Shown here: positions 14,434 through 21,388 of the stretch, one piece after another
Layout of the letters: every line of letters begins with the position of its first letter
How positions within the stretch are numbered: the stretch's first letter is position 1
Source of the DNA: Chryseobacterium camelliae
GTDB taxonomy: Bacteria > Bacteroidota > Bacteroidia > Flavobacteriales > Weeksellaceae
Direction: 5' to 3'
Length of the DNA: 64,000 nucleotides
Assembly (NCBI RefSeq): GCF_030818575.1
Contig: NZ_JAUTAL010000001.1
Span: 1,736,001-1,800,000, forward strand
Program-made: the position numbers and the translations under genes
Notes under the pieces: model-generated
Databases searched by the model: none
Told to the model about the DNA's origin: nothing
Seen by the model: only the letters and a program-made list of their open reading frames with translations

Positions 14434-15049
14434 TTTTGTTTTGTAAGCAACGAGTTCATTTGTGTTGTGAATTGCTTTCATTTTACCGTATCTTCGTGAT
14501 ACAACACAACCAGTTGCGCCGGCTCCATCCGTTTTGGCAAGTTGTGAATTGCTTTCATTTAATCGTATCTTCGTGATACAACACAACGAAGCTAATACGG
14601 CAATCAATTACATCAGAGTTGTGAATTGCTTTCATTTAATCGTATCTTCGTGATACAACACAACCCCATGCTCCGAATTGGAATCCCTTCGCTTGTTGTG
14701 AATTGCTTTCATTTAATCGTATCTTCGTGATACAACACAACAGTAATCTGAATACACAGATCAAAGATCTGGTTGTGAATTGCTTTCATTTAATCGTATC
14801 TTCGTGATACAACACAACTAAACACCAGAAGGCTACATAATATAGACAGTTGTGAATTGCTTTCACTTAATCGTATCTTCGTGATACAACACAACCAATG
14901 GTATTATAGGAATGCAGTTCAGTGCGTTGTGAATTGCTTTCATTTAATCGTATCTTCGTGATACAACACAACTTCTAAAAATTGTCATATTGGAAATGCA
15001 TCGTTGTGAATTGCTTTCATTTAATCGTATCTTCGTGATACAACACAAC

Positions 15050-15357
15050 CCTGTATAGTTATGATTCAATACATCGCAAGTTGTGAATTGCTTTCATTTA
15101 ATCGTATCTTCGTGATACAACACAACACGGGACGTTATCAGACCAGCTTTGGGACAGTTGTGAATTGCTTTTATTTAATCGTATCTTCGTGATACAACAC
15201 AACCCTGTATAGTTATGATTCAATACATCGCAAGTTGTGAATTGCTTTCATTTAATCGTATCTTCGTGATACAACACAACACGGGACGTTATCAGACCAG
15301 CTTTGGGACAGTTGTGAATTGCTTTTATTTAATCGTATCTTCGTGATACAACACAAC
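15050..15357 (+). repeat. Tandem duplication of two spacer-repeat units inside the array
   Basis: The 154-bp block 15050-15203 (spacer starting CCTGTATAGTT, repeat, spacer starting ACGGGACGTT, repeat) is repeated exactly at 15204-15357. The second repeat of each copy carries the same rare variant (GCTTTTATTT instead of GCTTTCATTT), so this is a copied segment and not independent spacer uptake. Confidence 0.95.
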
Positions 15358-15444
15358 CAATATTTTGAACGGATAACGAAGCCGTTGGTTGTGAATTGCT
15401 TTCATTTAATCGTATCTTCGTGATACAACACAACCTCAATATTT

Positions 15445-15492: not shown

Positions 15493-15834
<342 letters not shown>

Positions 15835-15874: not shown

Positions 15875-16755
15875 TCAGATTAGTTCAGGATAAGAGATCA
15901 GTCGCTTTTCACCCGTGTAACATTTATAAAGCGATGAAGCTGTATATTTTACAGCCATCAACAAGGGTCTTGTTTTATTGTCAATCAGCACATCCTTAGT
16001 CGCGATCTGAAGAATATGCGCTTTGAATTCTTTGGTCAGGTCTTCCGTCTCCGAATTTACTTTTAGCCACTGCATGACCAAAAGGTCCAAGAAAGGACGA
16101 TAAGGTTCCATTAAATCATCTGCGAGACAGTAGGGATTGTATTTGTTTTTATGAAAGATTCCGAGAACCGGAAGCAGTCCTGTTTCAACAATAGCCCTTG
16201 CCACAATACTCCGAAGTACGGCATACCCAAAATTAAAAAAAATGGTTGGGCGAATCCCCGAACCGCTGTCTCAAAAAATCTAGGGTGATCAGGTATTTCC
16301 AGTAATGCTGAGCAGCAATGCCTTCCATATTGGTAACATCGCCGGATTTTACATTCCGCTGGTATTCAATCATAGGTTCATAATAATTCCCCAGTTTCAT
16401 CAGCACATTTTTCTGGTTTTCAATCTTGCATTCCACCGTTTGCTTCCAGAGCTGTTTCTTTAGGGGTTCACTGGCTTCCAACTGCTCTTTTACCTGGTCC
16501 GAATGTTCAGTATGACCGTGCAACGGCAGCATGATTCCATGGGGTAGATGATGCGCATCACAACTTACCACCACCACATTATTGCCCATCATTTTCTGGA
16601 TCAGGTTATGGGAAATGGTCCAGCATCAGCAATCCCAAATCTTCCACCGGGACACTCCCCTTTTCCGCTTTGGTTTCCGGACAGATGATTTTCATCTGCT
16701 CGTCTTTGAGTTTAAGATAAGCGGGATTGCCGATGTAAATGGAGCGGGTGATCAC
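15875..16755 (-). pseudogene. cas1: Cas1 integrase, disrupted by two frameshifts
   Basis: Three consecutive frames together spell a Cas1 protein. Frame one runs from GTG 16755 (ITRSIYIGNPAYLKLKDEQM, VEDLGLLMLDH) to a stop at 16606. Frame two is TISHNLIQKMMGNNVVVVSC, HHLPHGIMLPLHGHTEHSDQ ... QRFGDSPNHFF, then a stop at 16233. Frame three is NFGYAVLRSIVARAIVETGL, LADDLMEPYRPFLDLLVMQW ... SYPELI. The first break lacks about 14 nt between conserved DH and TISH; the remaining junction ACCAT suggests deletion between short direct repeats. The second is one extra base in a run of eight A (16233-16242 on the plus strand). The gene starts 10 bp after cas9. Known role: spacer integration. The product is probably not functional. 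Confidence 0.88.
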
Positions 16756-16765
16756 TTTTAAAGTT

Positions 16766-19700
16766 TTAATATTCTCCTACCTGAACGATTTTTCCCAGAT
16801 GATTCAAACGGACTTTCCAAACATTCTTTAATCCGCTCAATCCTTCCCTTCTCCAGGTAATTCCTTTCAGTGCAGAATTATCTTCGACTGTAGTTTCCAA
16901 ATGATGCCTAAAGAAATAGTCTTTTGTTGCAATTTTCTGCACTCTGAAAAGATTTTTTGAAATAAAACTCAGATTCTTTTCATCAAATAAATCAACTTCT
17001 TTCGGATCAAAATCTTCTGATGGAAATAAAAACATTTCATTTTGTTTCATGGTAAAAAGAAATTTCCAGCCTGATGCGGAATTATATTCTTTATCAATAG
17101 CCGGTAATTTTTGGTTCACTCTTTCTACAGCTTCATAAAAACTCACAACTTTTTCCTGTAAATTTCCATTTTCATCTTCATAAATGGCAACGTGATGGTT
17201 ATTTCCTGTACTTACAAAATCAACGGCTATCCTTTGACCATCTTCATCTAAAATATCTTTTCCTAAGTGATCTTTTTTGTAATGCAGAGCTTCGGCATTA
17301 TTAATTCCTGTAATAGTAACCGCCTTTATTGAAATCCCTTTTGATTTATTAAGCCAGATCGGGTTCTTTTCCAAATCAGAAAAGGCTTCCTTAGAGTTTC
17401 CATTAAATTCTTTTAATCTTTCGGTCAGAATATCACGAATTCCTTTATCAATAACTTTTTCAATATTTTTAAAATCTTTAAAATTATCAGGATTTACCGC
17501 TTTTCTGATCGTATAGCCCGTTTCATACCAGGCTAAAGTTACGGTTTCGGGTAAATGGTCCGTTCTTTCAGCATCAAGAAATATTGGATTTTTAGAAATT
17601 ATATTTTTCCCGGTAAATGCTTTTTTCGGATCTCCGCCAAACTCTTGCAGCCTATTCAGCAAAGCATTTCTGTATCGTTCATTCTGAACTTTTTGAATGG
17701 TTTCTACATCGAATTTTCCCGACACCTTTTCTTCTTTTGTTTTAAGAAATTTTGAACTTCCGTAAATTGTCTCTTTATGAAGTTGTCCTCTAGGAGTCAG
17801 TTCTGCTTTTTCAATTACGCTTCCTTTTTTCTTAATTTTATTGATATTTCTGGTAACGACTTTATTTTTAGCTTTGTGAGAAATTAATATTTCATCCAAA
17901 TGTTTTTTGGCTTCTGCTCTAAGATTTTTAACAGGTTCTTTAAATCTTCTCTGCTTTGAACCATTTTTCTTTTCAATGACTTCTGTAATGTTATTTTCAA
18001 TATTGGTAATTATTTTATGCGCTTTATGAGCTTCATTTTTTCTTGCATTTAAGTAATTGAGATACTGTATATGATTGTGCGTTGTAAAAGCAACCGTTAA
18101 AGCGTCCATTGCGTGGTGACGGTGGTCATTTCTTTTAGTCCAGTTTATAATTCTCTGCTTCTCTTCTCCTTTTGAATTGATGACCGTTTCTGTAAGCCCT
18201 AGTTTTCTGTATTTTTCCAGATTAAGCTCTTTCATTGTATTGACAAGATTCCAGTCTTCACGGAGCTTTTCGGTTATCCGTCCTGAGGTTGGGGTTACAT
18301 AATTTGTAATTCCTAAAAGGATTTCTTTAGCTTTTTTTGCAATATATTGTGTATTTCGCAAATCTCTTTCAATAAAGCCATCTCCTATTTCGACACCTTT
18401 TTTTTGCAGTTTTTCAAATTTGGCTTTGGTAATTGCTCCCTTGTCATACAGATCTTTTATGATGTTTAAAAACTTTTCTAATTTGTCTTTTCCTTCAATC
18501 TCAAGATAATCGAATGCCGTAAAATTTCCTTTTTTAAGATTAGCGCTTCTTGGAACCAAGACTTTATTGGAAAAACTATCATCAAAAAATCGGGATTGTG
18601 GTATGATGTGATCAATATCATATTTCTCGGTAAATAAGTTTCCTCTTTCAATTTTCACATCCGTATACAAATCCTTGAAGCCGTTATTTGCCAGTTCTAA
18701 GTATAATTTGTAACGAATGATATCATTTCTGGATGGAGCAGGAATATTAAATTCCTTTTTCAAAATTTCGGCATATTTCTGATGCTGTATTGTCGCCTTA
18801 TTAATTTCGGAAGTCATTATAGCGCGTTCTTCCGCACTAAATTTGAGCTCTCTTGCCAATTCAATTATTATTTCATCAGGTCTTCCGTATTCTTTTGAAA
18901 CTTCATTCACAAGATTGATCATCTGATTCAAAATCTTTTCAACTACCGGATTTCGTAAAGAATTTTTGGGAAGGATCTCCAACTGTTCCTTTAAAGGCCG
19001 GTTTTCTAATTGCTCTTTTGTTAACGAATTTTTAGAATGATTATACCCTGCATAATTACAGGCTGTACTGTATTTATGCTCTTTAATATAGGGATAAATC
19101 TTTCGCATCGCCTTAGAACTCAGACTTCCATAATCCTGAGGAAAAACAATTTCCGCTAATATTTTGGAATGCTCTTTTCTGAACCCGAATTTCTTTTGCA
19201 GTAACTCATACAGTTTTTCATTTCCTGACGGAGAATCATCACCTTCATAAGAATACAGCAGATGCCACAGCTGGTAAGAAGATTGTTTTTCAAAATCATT
19301 TCCATCCAATTCCGGATTGAAGTCCAGAACAGAAGTATCAATTCCCAAGCCTGACAGCTTTTCCTTAACAAATAATTGTATGATTTCTGAAGAAGCATTG
19401 ATCTTAGAAACTCTAATTTCATCATCAATGGTCAACTTAAATTCTTTTGGAAATGCTATTCCTTCACTGGCTATAATTTTCAGAAAAGCATTGTATAGAT
19501 TTTCATTGGTATAATTTCCTTCAATCTCTTTGAAATTAGTCTTCCATTCTTTCCCCGAATAACCAATAAGATCCAAAACATCCTTTGCAGAAAGTTTTCC
19601 TTTCACATTCACCTCATTGAAAATTGATTGCTTACAATCTAAAACTATTGGAAAAACTTCTTGGTTATCTACATTCTGAAACTGTAAATTATTCAGAACC

Positions 19701-20956
19701 TGCCAGATTTTAAATTCCTGAAACAAAGGAGAAGACTTTGGTGCAACCTTTAGTCCTAATGTTTTCTTTTTTGTTTTTCCGTTTTCTGTAATTTCTATTT
19801 CTCTGTTTTCAAACTCACAGATGCTGATCAAACCTTTCTGTGATTTTAGTTTCCTCTGATAGAAAATAATAATATCCCGAACCTCTCCTTTTAATTCCTG
19901 CGTTAATTCTTTATGATACTTAGATTGAGTTTCCCATATTTTCTCAAATTCATCCAAATAATCCTGTCTGTAGAAAACCTGATTTTTAAGTTTCGTATGA
20001 GGGTTTACTTTTAACTGATGAAATAAATATTCCCCGACTGTCTGATTTTTAAAATACAATTCCTTGCTTCGGTCACTGATTGCTCCTAAATAACCGCTTG
20101 AATTATTCAGATTACTGTTGATTTCCTGAAACACAATAGCCAAACTTTCGAAATCCAGCTGTTTTTTAACCGCTTCACTTCTCCAAAAGTATTTTTCAGC
20201 TTTTTTCTCCTGCATCGTTCCGGTTTGCTTGATTCCTACAAGGGAAAATGGAATCTCTAATTCTTTCCAGGTTGCATTCCTATTTTTACCCTGAAGTCTT
20301 CCATAGAGTTCATGAGAAAAAATTTCAGGATTGAATTGTTTCTGAAAATCCCAAATCTTATCAAATTCAGCCTGTAAATCTGAACGGTAAAAATCTGGCA
20401 ATTGCTTTTTGCCTTGCTGTAAAAGTTGGTATGAATATTCTCCGGGGGTTAAATTTTCCTCATACAATTTTTTAGCTACAGCCATTCCGTCCACAATTTG
20501 CCCTTCCTCATCGTTTTTAGCTTTGCGGCTGCTCCTGTACCCTCTTTTTTTATTGATTAAAAGTAAAACCCTGGCAAATTCTGAAAGCTCTATTTGTTCT
20601 TTTGCCGCCTTTGCCCTTAATTCCTGAGTTTGAAAGGTTGAGTTTTTCCCAACTTCCGCAAGCAGGTCTGTTTCTTTGAGAATATTATTTTTCTTTAGAA
20701 CATCAATGAGATTGGATCTTCTCAATTTAAACCTTTGAAGATTTCTTCTCGCACTTCTGGCCAAAGTTCTTCCGGCATTGGTTGTAATGGGTTTTCCTTT
20801 TTCGAAATTCAGCTGCTCATCAACAGTCAGCGGATTTACACGGACTCCAAGTTTGATGATTTTATTATTTTCAGGATTTTTAGAATCTTCCTGAACATAG
20901 GCCCATCCTATCGAAGAAATACCTAAGTCTAATCCCAATATTTTATTTACGTTCAT
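16766..20956 (-). CDS. cas9: Type II-C Cas9 RNA-guided DNA nuclease
   Basis: The protein is 1,396 residues from the ATG at 20956 (MNVNKILGLDLGISSIGWAY); a further in-frame ATG at 20998 would lie inside the mapped promoter, so I reject it. The nuclease motifs are intact: RuvC-I ILGLDLGISSIGWAY with Asp10, the arginine-rich bridge helix (RTLARSARRNLQRFKLRR, ~residues 58-75), RuvC-II IIIELAREL (~698), HNH YDIDHIIPQSRFFDDSFSNK (~780) and RuvC-III HHAMDALTVAFT (~948). The recognition lobe and a PAM-interacting C-terminus fill the rest. About 1,400 residues is normal for Bacteroidota II-C enzymes. It is the first gene of cas9-cas1-cas2, behind the promoter at 20984-21017. Confidence 0.97.
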   Translation of the reverse strand: MNVNKILGLDLGISSIGWAYVQEDSKNPENNKIIKLGVRVNPLTVDEQLNFEKGKPITTNAGRTLARSARRNLQRFKLRRSNLIDVLKKNNILKETDLLAEVGKNSTFQTQELRAKAAKEQIELSEFARVLLLINKKRGYRSSRKAKNDEEGQIVDGMAVAKKLYEENLTPGEYSYQLLQQGKKQLPDFYRSDLQAEFDKIWDFQKQFNPEIFSHELYGRLQGKNRNATWKELEIPFSLVGIKQTGTMQEKKAEKYFWRSEAVKKQLDFESLAIVFQEINSNLNNSSGYLGAISDRSKELYFKNQTVGEYLFHQLKVNPHTKLKNQVFYRQDYLDEFEKIWETQSKYHKELTQELKGEVRDIIIFYQRKLKSQKGLISICEFENREIEITENGKTKKKTLGLKVAPKSSPLFQEFKIWQVLNNLQFQNVDNQEVFPIVLDCKQSIFNEVNVKGKLSAKDVLDLIGYSGKEWKTNFKEIEGNYTNENLYNAFLKIIASEGIAFPKEFKLTIDDEIRVSKINASSEIIQLFVKEKLSGLGIDTSVLDFNPELDGNDFEKQSSYQLWHLLYSYEGDDSPSGNEKLYELLQKKFGFRKEHSKILAEIVFPQDYGSLSSKAMRKIYPYIKEHKYSTACNYAGYNHSKNSLTKEQLENRPLKEQLEILPKNSLRNPVVEKILNQMINLVNEVSKEYGRPDEIIIELARELKFSAEERAIMTSEINKATIQHQKYAEILKKEFNIPAPSRNDIIRYKLYLELANNGFKDLYTDVKIERGNLFTEKYDIDHIIPQSRFFDDSFSNKVLVPRSANLKKGNFTAFDYLEIEGKDKLEKFLNIIKDLYDKGAITKAKFEKLQKKGVEIGDGFIERDLRNTQYIAKKAKEILLGITNYVTPTSGRITEKLREDWNLVNTMKELNLEKYRKLGLTETVINSKGEEKQRIINWTKRNDHRHHAMDALTVAFTTHNHIQYLNYLNARKNEAHKAHKIITNIENNITEVIEKKNGSKQRRFKEPVKNLRAEAKKHLDEILISHKAKNKVVTRNINKIKKKGSVIEKAELTPRGQLHKETIYGSSKFLKTKEEKVSGKFDVETIQKVQNERYRNALLNRLQEFGGDPKKAFTGKNIISKNPIFLDAERTDHLPETVTLAWYETGYTIRKAVNPDNFKDFKNIEKVIDKGIRDILTERLKEFNGNSKEAFSDLEKNPIWLNKSKGISIKAVTITGINNAEALHYKKDHLGKDILDEDGQRIAVDFVSTGNNHHVAIYEDENGNLQEKVVSFYEAVERVNQKLPAIDKEYNSASGWKFLFTMKQNEMFLFPSEDFDPKEVDLFDEKNLSFISKNLFRVQKIATKDYFFRHHLETTVEDNSALKGITWRREGLSGLKNVWKVRLNHLGKIVQVGEY

Positions 20957-20983: not shown

Positions 20984-21017
20984 CAAATATAAAAACAATT
21001 ACCGTTTTAGTTATCAA
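20984..21017 (-). promoter_or_regulatory. cas9 promoter
   Basis: On the minus strand a TTG (21017-21015) lies 23 bp before TATATTTG (20991-20984), which together fit the Bacteroidota -33 TTG / -7 TAnnTTTG promoter. Transcription would begin near 20977, leaving a leader of about 20 nt before the cas9 ATG. The TTG sits inside AGTTGATAACTA (21019-21008), the same 12 bases as the guide end of the crRNA-like RNA at 21147-21158. Confidence 0.75.
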
Positions 21018-21034
21018 CTAAAATGATAAATTTA

Positions 21035-21042
21035 TATCTTTG
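21035..21042 (+). promoter_or_regulatory. -7 element for the crRNA-like RNA
   Basis: The plus strand reads TATCTTTG, an exact TAnnTTTG, divergent from the cas9 promoter and about 115 bp before the degenerate repeat. Transcription would start near 21049. I see no TTG at the expected -33 distance, so a helper or a weak promoter is possible. Confidence 0.6.
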
Positions 21043-21048
21043 TTCATA

Positions 21049-21212
21049 GAAAAAGATTATTTCTGAAGAGAAATCGTTATTAAGGTCCAAACTTAATTCT
21101 AAAATCCCCCAAGGTTTTTTGCTTTTTCTATACAATGGTTATTTACAGTTGATAACTATTGTGAATTGTTTTCATTTCAATCCTAATAAGTTAATTCTTA
21201 TTAGGATTTCTT
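21049..21212 (+). ncRNA. crRNA-like regulatory RNA with a degenerate CRISPR repeat, aimed at the cas9 promoter
   Basis: The element reads as follows. Bases 21047-21056 (ATAGAAAAAG) can pair perfectly with 21122-21131 (CTTTTTCTAT) and fold the leader away. Next is a guide-like segment, about 21128-21157. Then a copy of the first ~24 nt of the CRISPR repeat (21158 on: ATTGTGAATTGTTTTCATTT), which differs from the true repeat at position 1 and by C to T at position 12, and carries one extra C just after position 20. A terminator ends it. The repeat part can pair with the tracrRNA anti-repeat over 17 bp, with one G-U. The 12 bases AGTTGATAACTA at the guide-repeat junction equal the cas9 sense strand at its -33 element. 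Inference: with tracrRNA it makes Cas9 repress cas9. Precedents of this type are scaRNA and long-form tracrRNA in other type II systems. Confidence 0.75.
21181..21212 (+). terminator. Terminator of the crRNA-like RNA
   Basis: A perfect 10-bp stem, TCCTAATAAG / CTTATTAGGA with a 6-nt loop, is followed by TTTCTTTTTT. It directly follows the degenerate repeat, so the RNA cannot contain a full repeat. Confidence 0.9.
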
Positions 21213-21299
21213 TTTTATAACAATAAACTTCTGAAAGATATGCTTAAATTTTTTTATTAAAATACGGAAAACCATAAACCGGATAAAAAATTATTTTTC

Positions 21300-21307
21300 T
21301 ACATTTG
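21300..21307 (+). promoter_or_regulatory. -7 element of the tracrRNA promoter
   Basis: TACATTTG matches TAnnTTTG exactly. It places the start of transcription near 21313, at the very beginning of the anti-repeat. No clear -33 TTG is present. Confidence 0.65.
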
Positions 21308-21310
21308 TAC

Positions 21311-21388
21311 ATGAAAGCAATTCACAATAAGGATTATTCCGTTGTGAAAACATTTAGCGCCTCGCCTATCTGTGGGGCATTTTTTATA
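21311..21388 (+). ncRNA. tracrRNA of the type II-C system
   Basis: The 5' end, ATGAAAGCAATTCACAA (21311-21327), is a perfect 17-nt complement of repeat positions 2-18. It is followed by the nexus-like hairpin GGATTATTCC, the linker GTTGTGAAAAC and a terminal hairpin (GCCTC / GGGGC) that runs into TTTTTT near 21387. The anti-repeat fixes the array's direction as the plus strand. The tracrRNA holds Cas9 and the crRNA together; the same anti-repeat also fits the degenerate repeat at 21158. The gene is divergent from cas9 and about 350 bp from its start. Confidence 0.92.

Follow-up and report, generated by a model that had tools for sequence, protein, structure and literature searches.

A solitary crRNA-like gene beside cas9 in Chryseobacterium camelliae, a probable guide of Cas9 to its own promoter region

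Organization of the locus

The window, meaning the whole 64,000-nt stretch of the Chryseobacterium camelliae genome (4,187,050 bases) that was analysed, contains a CRISPR-Cas locus whose cas9 gene (16766..20956, minus strand) encodes a type II Cas9 of 1396 aa, matched by TIGR01865 at 500.8 bits. This Cas9 is called type II-C from its Bacteroidota relatives and its gene neighbours, a call made without any csn2 or cas4 model. The cas2 gene (15493-15831) is also on the minus strand, and cas1 (15875-16592) is split into at least two frames, with ORFs at 16233-16592, which gives a partial Cas1 match, and at 15875-16204. Unless the split reflects a sequencing error, spacer acquisition may have been lost in this strain owing to the broken cas1.

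The CRISPR array, at about 14464-15434 on the plus strand, consists of 47-nt repeats (GTTGTGAATTGCTTTCATTTAATCGTATCTTCGTGATACAACACAAC) and 30-nt spacers, with an additional partial repeat end upstream. Within it, at 15050-15357, a two-spacer unit of 154 nt, repeats included, is present twice in tandem. In the type II-C systems of Neisseria, each repeat carries a promoter. The array repeats of the window and its relatives contain a TTG followed 21 nt on by TATCTTCG, or by TATCTTTG in relatives, and from these motifs every repeat may contain a promoter of its own. The tracrRNA gene (21311..21378, plus strand) includes an anti-repeat at 21311-21334 and a terminator-like hairpin at 21359-21378, and is preceded by a putative -7 box (TACATTTG, 21300..21307, plus strand). 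A palindrome (TACGGAAAACCATA, 21263..21276) lies 59 nt upstream of the anti-repeat core.

The solitary guide gene

Between cas9 and the tracrRNA gene sits a solitary repeat unit on the plus strand. It begins with a putative -7 box (TATCTTTG, 21035..21042), followed by a conserved, structured leader (21044..21133), a guide region of 24 nt (21134..21157), a lone, degenerate copy of the array repeat's 5' portion (21158..21181) and a terminator-like hairpin of 12 pairs (21179..21208), after which a T run extends to about 21215. A guide of 24 nt is of the usual length for type II-C. The preliminary description, made from the sequence, had pointed to a lone degenerate repeat from 21158, beside cas9 and before a terminator, and the sequence is indeed as described there. 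Outside the array and the anti-repeat, no place in the genome other than the solitary repeat matches TTGTGAATTGYTTTCA perfectly. With one mismatch, two repeat-like 16-mers occur elsewhere, at G000:C1:297151-297166 and 442139-442154.

The final 11 nt of the guide (21147-21157) are identical to a target site on the cas9 sense strand (21009..21019, minus strand), adjoined by a PAM-like flank, AAAAC (21004..21008, minus strand). This had been described as a 12-nt match at the guide-repeat junction. Both places of the 12-mer are confirmed (21147-21158 on the plus strand, 21008-21019 on the minus strand), but since the array repeat begins with G, base 21158, an A in place of this G, is repeat position 1, and the flank starts at 21008. 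The match proper is therefore 11 nt. No third copy of the 12-mer exists in the whole 4,187,050-base genome, and 9 nt of the seed with AAAC (TTGATAACTNAAAC) or NAAAC occur a single time, at the cas9 site. None of 2000 dinucleotide shuffles of the interval attains an 11-nt match anchored at the 3' end, which bears out the earlier view that a chance match is very unlikely; with one mismatch allowed, 2 of 100 window-wide dinucleotide shuffles give at least two matches to the 12-mer. The repeat part is predicted to pair with the anti-repeat through 18 pairs (-22.5 kcal/mol), one more than first counted, of which one is the G-U pair already noted.

Occurrence in related genomes

Cas9 was searched for in 173 genomes of the genus and 320 of the family, where at least the matches listed are present, and a scan of named genomes contributed the best 80 of 193 loci. 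From the listed matches, 120 stretches were picked by hand to span the Cas9 types listed. After removal of redundancy, 173 cas9 loci remained, 166 with an anti-repeat within 900 nt of cas9 and seven without; two pairs still share sequence (L049 and L054, with an identical cas9 stretch, and L208 and L229, with identical 100 nt upstream), and none of these is type A.

Loci are called type A here if the cas9-tracrRNA interval holds a solitary repeat that points away from cas9, and they were picked by repeat and position, independently of any guide match. They make up 11 of the 166 loci with an anti-repeat, so the usual control of cas9 is a different one. These eleven are the window locus (L033) and its counterparts in C. 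jejuense (L034), Paenimyroides aquimaris (L117) and Niabella drilacis (L125), together with L173, L183, L185, L188, L196, L198 and L210. Four of them (L173, L185, L196 and L198) belong to one lineage and are not independent. The cas9-tracrRNA interval measures 334-580 nt in type A, against a median of 118 nt in the 151 loci that are neither type A nor type B (described below). A pattern search in a sample of 395 genomes of the order gave one new type A locus (G158); L173 stems from this search. In a phylum sample of 395 genomes it gave none, an absence that means little as the patterns span some spacings only.

Several weaker repeat-like matches were initially excluded from the eleven: in L144, L151, L154, L155 and L171 (two), plus-strand matches that lie in the interval from cas9 to the anti-repeat and have three mismatches, and in L041, L044 and L045, matches past the anti-repeat. 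In all nine the guide match is only 4-8 nt. Also not counted as type A are plus-strand matches past the anti-repeat in L128, L184, L193, L214, L225, L228 and L232, and minus-strand matches outside types B and C, e.g. in L063, L064 and L182; the copy in L064 has no match of 8 nt or more. L073 and L171 have long intervals with no clear solitary repeat.

A palindrome resembling that of the window (TACGGNNNNCCGTA, up to two mismatches) is found in 94 of the 151 loci without a solitary guide and in 10 of the 11 type A loci, mostly 57-68 nt upstream of the anti-repeat. Where the guide gene is absent, it is perhaps an operator common to cas9 and the tracrRNA gene.

Co-variation of guide and target site

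In all eleven type A loci the guide matches its own cas9-upstream region, exactly in ten (10-13 nt) and in 11 of 12 positions in the other. The exact match, anchored at the 3' end, is 13 nt in L034, 12 nt in L185 and L198, 11 nt in L033, L173, L188 and L196, and 10 nt in L117, L125 and L210. In L183 the longest exact match is 6 nt, and the 11 of 12 include one seed mismatch that a G-U pair would tolerate; none of 500 simple shuffles equals it. Among 2000 dinucleotide shuffles for each of the other loci, the observed length is attained by none in seven loci, by one each in L117 and L125, and by nine in L210. As two sites each are present in L196 and L198, the sites total 13, and all 13 are on the cas9 sense strand.

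A table of every guide against every interval gives the same picture. Guides fit their own interval, and the intervals of other loci give 3-8 nt; the exception is the lineage of L173, L185, L196 and L198, within which 8-12 nt are found and in which guide and site have been altered jointly (GTGCAGAGTTA, GTACAGAGTTA). About eight unrelated guide sequences occur among the eleven loci, each matching its own locus, and guide and site therefore co-vary. Co-variation between the guide end and the cas9 promoter of relatives is what the preliminary description had named as support for its reading. Array spacers served as a control: two of 1,267 match at least 10 nt of the 180 nt upstream of their own cas9, one of them over 13 nt within the tracrRNA part of L045, and when spacers are compared with the eleven type A intervals, 28 of 13,937 pairs share at least 10 nt. 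Past the seed, guide and site agree at about 40% of positions (51/128), so that the match breaks off sharply at 10-13 nt. The repeat parts of all eleven loci are predicted to pair with their own anti-repeats, at -16.5 to -27.3 kcal/mol.

Sequences flanking the sites

Two Cas9 clades each have consistent flanks at their sites. Those of the clade that includes the window Cas9 are AAAAC (window) and GAAAC (C. jejuense), or NAAAC; in the 34%-identity Cas9 clade they are TAAAAT, ATAAAT or AGAAAT, or NNAAAT, at eight of eight sites and with three unrelated guides. This consistency is what a PAM would produce, and the flanks may be read as one. Deviating flanks are found in L117 (GAGTT), L125 (GGGTT) and L210 (AGTTC), each once among the type A loci.

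Searches with array spacers bear on the same point. A comparison of 56 of the 755 clade spacers with phages gave no protospacer, 1,267 spacers compared with the examined cas9 loci gave no PAM support, and four exact viral scans with spacers gave partial matches only. One spacer matches viral DNA at 28 of 30 positions, in a repetitive stretch flanked by GTGCC, which is either evidence against the PAM reading or a product of chance. In a term search of a Cas9 catalogue (PMC7606464), Chryseobacterium is not named.

Promoters around the sites

Bacteroidota promoters have the consensus TTG-N19-21-TAnnTTTG. A putative cas9 -7 box of this type (TATATTTG) is located at 20984..20991 on the minus strand, and the target site of the window lies on the putative -33 zones of both the cas9 and the small RNA promoters. 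The preliminary description had the site covering the TTG of the cas9 promoter; the assignment of this cas9 -33 element is weak, with a spacing of 23 nt between the TTG and the -7 box.

The geometry is more regular with respect to the RNA gene. At all 13 sites, 22-31 nt separate the PAM-proximal edge from the start of the gene's putative -7 box, so that each site falls on the RNA's own -33 zone. This box has one mismatch in L188, and clear TTG elements are mostly missing across the sites. On the cas9 side, the site overlaps a cas9 -7 box or lies 14-25 nt upstream of one in nine type A loci; in L196 the cas9 -7 box is present only with one mismatch, and L198 has no clear one at the cas9-proximal site. 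In both L196 and L198, promoter, site and leader are tandemly duplicated upstream of one guide.

The simplest reading of this layout would be one Cas9-bound operator between two back-to-back promoters. As each site covers the -33 zone of the RNA promoter, a single bound Cas9 should repress both of the divergent promoters, and from the near-constant spacing to the -7 box of that promoter it is probable that the RNA represses its own gene along with cas9.

The structured leader

A leader of about 85 nt is common to nine type A loci and is missing from L117 and L125. It was not seen in the preliminary description. The predicted fold is a four-way junction, and the window copy scores 81.3 bits with the corresponding covariance model, R1. 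Eleven copies were aligned, as two loci have a duplicate; the alignment shows no variation in the loop cores UGA-GA, UCC-A and CCAA, and double compensatory changes in 23 of the 26 pairs in the stems. Pairing is possible in 87.7% of cells, against 63.1% in shuffles, of which none of 500 equals the observed value; if partners are slid by 1-3 columns, pairing falls to only 35-47%. The alignment was not fitted to the structure, though the structure was derived from the alignment.

At an E value of 0.001, model R1 detects exactly the nine source genomes and no other among 171 genomes of the genus. Among 316 family genomes it yields one extra weak match only, in G187, which was rejected because it lies inside a coding frame. 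Another weak match, in L125 (20.4 bits, E 0.019), is located beyond cas9, outside the RNA gene. Rfam gives no match at gathering score for the window and the seven other leader-locus stretches compared, together all leader loci but L034. Identity as a tRNA was rejected: the spacing of the junction is wrong for one, and ARAGORN predicts no such gene in L033 or L034.

For the window RNA (21044-21215), the predicted fold has z = -4.97. The predicted mean probability of the guide seed being unpaired is about 0.27 in the eleven type A loci and 0.52 in 120 array crRNA windows, with mean z values of -2.2 and -1.1, so pairing of the seed is predicted to be more frequent than in array crRNAs, a modest effect. 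The window guide would be partly masked in a predicted hairpin with the start of the repeat, which could hinder use of the guide.

Related solitary guides

Two further kinds of solitary guide are found among the surveyed loci. Type C (L035, L037, L039, L042 and L046) is located about 400 nt past the tracrRNA gene on the opposite strand. In all five of these loci, which form one lineage, the guide has a 9-10 nt match just upstream of its own putative promoter and away from cas9; 0-6 of 1000 simple shuffles equal the match. Four of the five sites, which belong to the first Cas9 clade, are flanked by NAAAC, the flanks being TAAAC (three), GAAAC (one) and GAAAT (one). Downstream of the solitary repeat is a 35-codon ORF, closely similar in all five loci and with the sequence MDLKNLICFRSFKHWRSKKIVHLSKPFCFYCKKRK in L035 and L037. 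Type C is a candidate for a Cas9-controlled unit resembling CrePA or CreTA.

In type B (L066, L071, L114, L126 and L189), the solitary repeat directly follows a tRNA gene, Ile(TAT) or Phe(GAA), and points in the direction of cas9. All type B guides end in AAATCA, and the four compared have 8-11 nt matches near promoter-like boxes of the tRNA unit, equalled by 0-43 of 1000 simple shuffles, with the L126 match being weak. The idea that the type B tRNA is an antisense RNA against a native tRNA was rejected, as the L071 tRNA has a single match in each of G093 and G064, which is the type B copy; no second copy of this tRNA was found in either genome. The type B and type C sites are treated here as leads and not as proofs.

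Proposed function and alternatives

The most probable reading, and one that can be held with considerable confidence, is that the solitary guide RNA leads Cas9 to repress cas9 and the guide's own gene. If transcribed as predicted, the RNA would form a duplex with tracrRNA and be loaded into Cas9, which would then block two divergent promoters, the putative one of cas9 and the RNA's own. A match of 10-13 nt is expected to be too short for cutting, and Cas9 would thus bind without cleavage. Feedback would follow: free Cas9-tracrRNA would load the guide and lower transcription of cas9 and of the guide, and occupation of Cas9 by array crRNAs or by an anti-CRISPR would relieve the repression. The preliminary description had already proposed a natural Cas9 guide that blocks cas9 transcription, and the co-variation in 11 of 11 loci, with about eight unrelated guides, argues for that proposal.

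A rather unlikely alternative, though one that several observations favour, is that the guide mainly represses its own promoter, exposing the leader or other cargo when Cas9 is missing, and that cas9 is affected only incidentally, as the promoters stand back to back. The distance of the site is near constant with respect to the RNA's -7 box (22-31 nt, 13 of 13) and variable with respect to that of cas9. All five type C guides, which are closely related, match upstream of their own putative promoter and away from cas9, the four type B guides compared match 8-11 nt near the promoter-like boxes of the tRNA unit, and L196 and L198 retain a second site at the duplicated RNA promoter. However, all eleven type A genes are placed divergently at cas9, and in nine loci the site overlaps the cas9 -7 box or lies 14-25 nt upstream of it. 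L117 and L125, moreover, have no leader, so no cargo besides cas9 is evident there.

That the RNA is a decoy or competitor titrating tracrRNA or Cas9 in the manner of Racr, with an irrelevant promoter match, would suit a solitary repeat with strong predicted anti-repeat pairing and a seed predicted to be masked; but a guide would be superfluous in a decoy, and co-variation of guide and promoter in all eleven loci, with flanks shared in two clades, makes this reading very improbable. Chance, a functionless short duplication of the promoter or a palindromic operator for a protein would be in keeping with AT-rich DNA, with the near-palindromic window site (TTTTAGTTATCAACTAAAA, 8 of 9 symmetric pairs) and with the hairpin arm of L117, which repeats the site. 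The shuffle, cross-locus and spacer controls, the abrupt end of the match at 10-13 nt and the far lower symmetry of the other ten sites (best 38-71%) make such an origin exceedingly improbable. A post-transcriptional role is known for a II-C scaRNA from excerpts of PMC13431127, in which the meningococcal RNA acts on efeO mRNA, but antisense pairing with cas9 mRNA is barely conceivable here: at all 13 sites the guide has the same sense as cas9 and so cannot pair with the cas9 mRNA at the site.

Beyond repression of cas9 by the type A guide, a wider reading can be offered, tentatively and at somewhat less than even likelihood, that covers all three types as one. In it, Bacteroidota II-C loci would carry self-locking guide genes, in which a solitary crRNA guides Cas9 to its own promoter and the cargo sharing that promoter would be freed by loss or saturation of Cas9 or by an anti-CRISPR that blocks it. 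As cargo, type A would have cas9 and the four-way-junction RNA, type B an extra tRNA and type C the 35-codon ORF.

Relation to known systems

Cas-regulating RNAs (CreR) were reportedly introduced by Liu et al. in Cell Host Microbe in 2023. Excerpts of reviews describe them as crRNA-like RNAs encoded outside the array, with short complementarity to a cas promoter and with feedback on Cas levels (PMC12737573, PMC13131331, PMC12948488), and name them for types I-B, I-E and V-A (PMC13131331) or for type I and V-A. The guide RNA described here, known from its sequence, is likewise encoded outside the array with partial complementarity to a cas promoter region. Unlike CreR as portrayed in those excerpts, it belongs to a Cas9 of type II-C, has a single repeat and a terminator-like hairpin instead of a mini-CRISPR, would depend on a tracrRNA in trans, and is combined with a shared divergent promoter and a structured leader.

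The nearest mechanistic parallel is in type II-A. According to the available text of PMC11417352, the S. pyogenes tracr-L leads Cas9 to Pcas by a match of about 11 nt and represses it, and S. pyogenes Cas9 with the short tracrRNA also represses this promoter when the crRNA matches it over only 11 nt. The match at the cas9-upstream region is also about 11 nt here, with a PAM-like flank suggested by the shared flanks. However, tracr-L is a long tracrRNA isoform serving as a single guide in that account, whereas the present loci have a separate crRNA-like gene upstream, with its own terminator-like hairpin, and an ordinary tracrRNA.

Solitary repeat-like genes near cas genes with predicted tracrRNA pairing also recall scaRNA of the II-B system of F. 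novicida. The targets reported for scaRNA in the excerpts seen are a lipoprotein operon and efeO, whereas the guide here would be directed at the region upstream of cas9 and its 12-mer has no further genome site. Pairs of scaRNA and tracrRNA have been predicted in II-A and II-C, the latter in Neisseria and Pasteurella, with target prediction left open in the text available (PMC6199352). That part of the 2018 study shows no promoter co-variation for its II-C predictions, unlike the present loci. In CreTA and CrePA an ectopic degenerate-repeat guide represses a neighbouring promoter (excerpts of PMC9458426 and PMC12737573), and types B and C are similar in this respect; CreTA uses type I Cascade in those excerpts and has a toxin under the repressed promoter, for which the type A leader, the type B tRNA and the type C ORF are candidates only. 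Racr RNA anti-CRISPRs share the solitary repeat unit but are described in the available part of PMC10651486 as phage-encoded repeat mimics, whereas the gene here is chromosomal and its guide co-varies with a site. The accessible part of a survey of structured RNAs in CRISPR operons (PMC9067536) includes II-C tracrRNA and no such leader.

The suggestion that this arrangement may be undescribed thus holds in part. Solitary genes of the scaRNA type had already been predicted in II-C (the consulted text of PMC6199352), and a literature search for a II-C guide aimed at the cas9 promoter found none. What appears to be new, as a prediction from sequence, is a tracrRNA-dependent guide gene for cas9 feedback in type II-C. 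It would extend the RNA-guided self-control of CRISPR effectors to this type, and would add a natural way of turning Cas9 into a repressor, through an ordinary tracrRNA and a dedicated crRNA gene. Such Cas9 feedback is open to direct test by swaps of seed and site. As natural guides with fixed short matches, these genes also point to likely PAMs (NAAAC, NNAAAT) of uncharacterised Cas9s, and the leader adds a covariation-supported RNA structure. The self-locking family, if true, would be for Cas9 what CreR and CreTA are elsewhere, combined in a single design.
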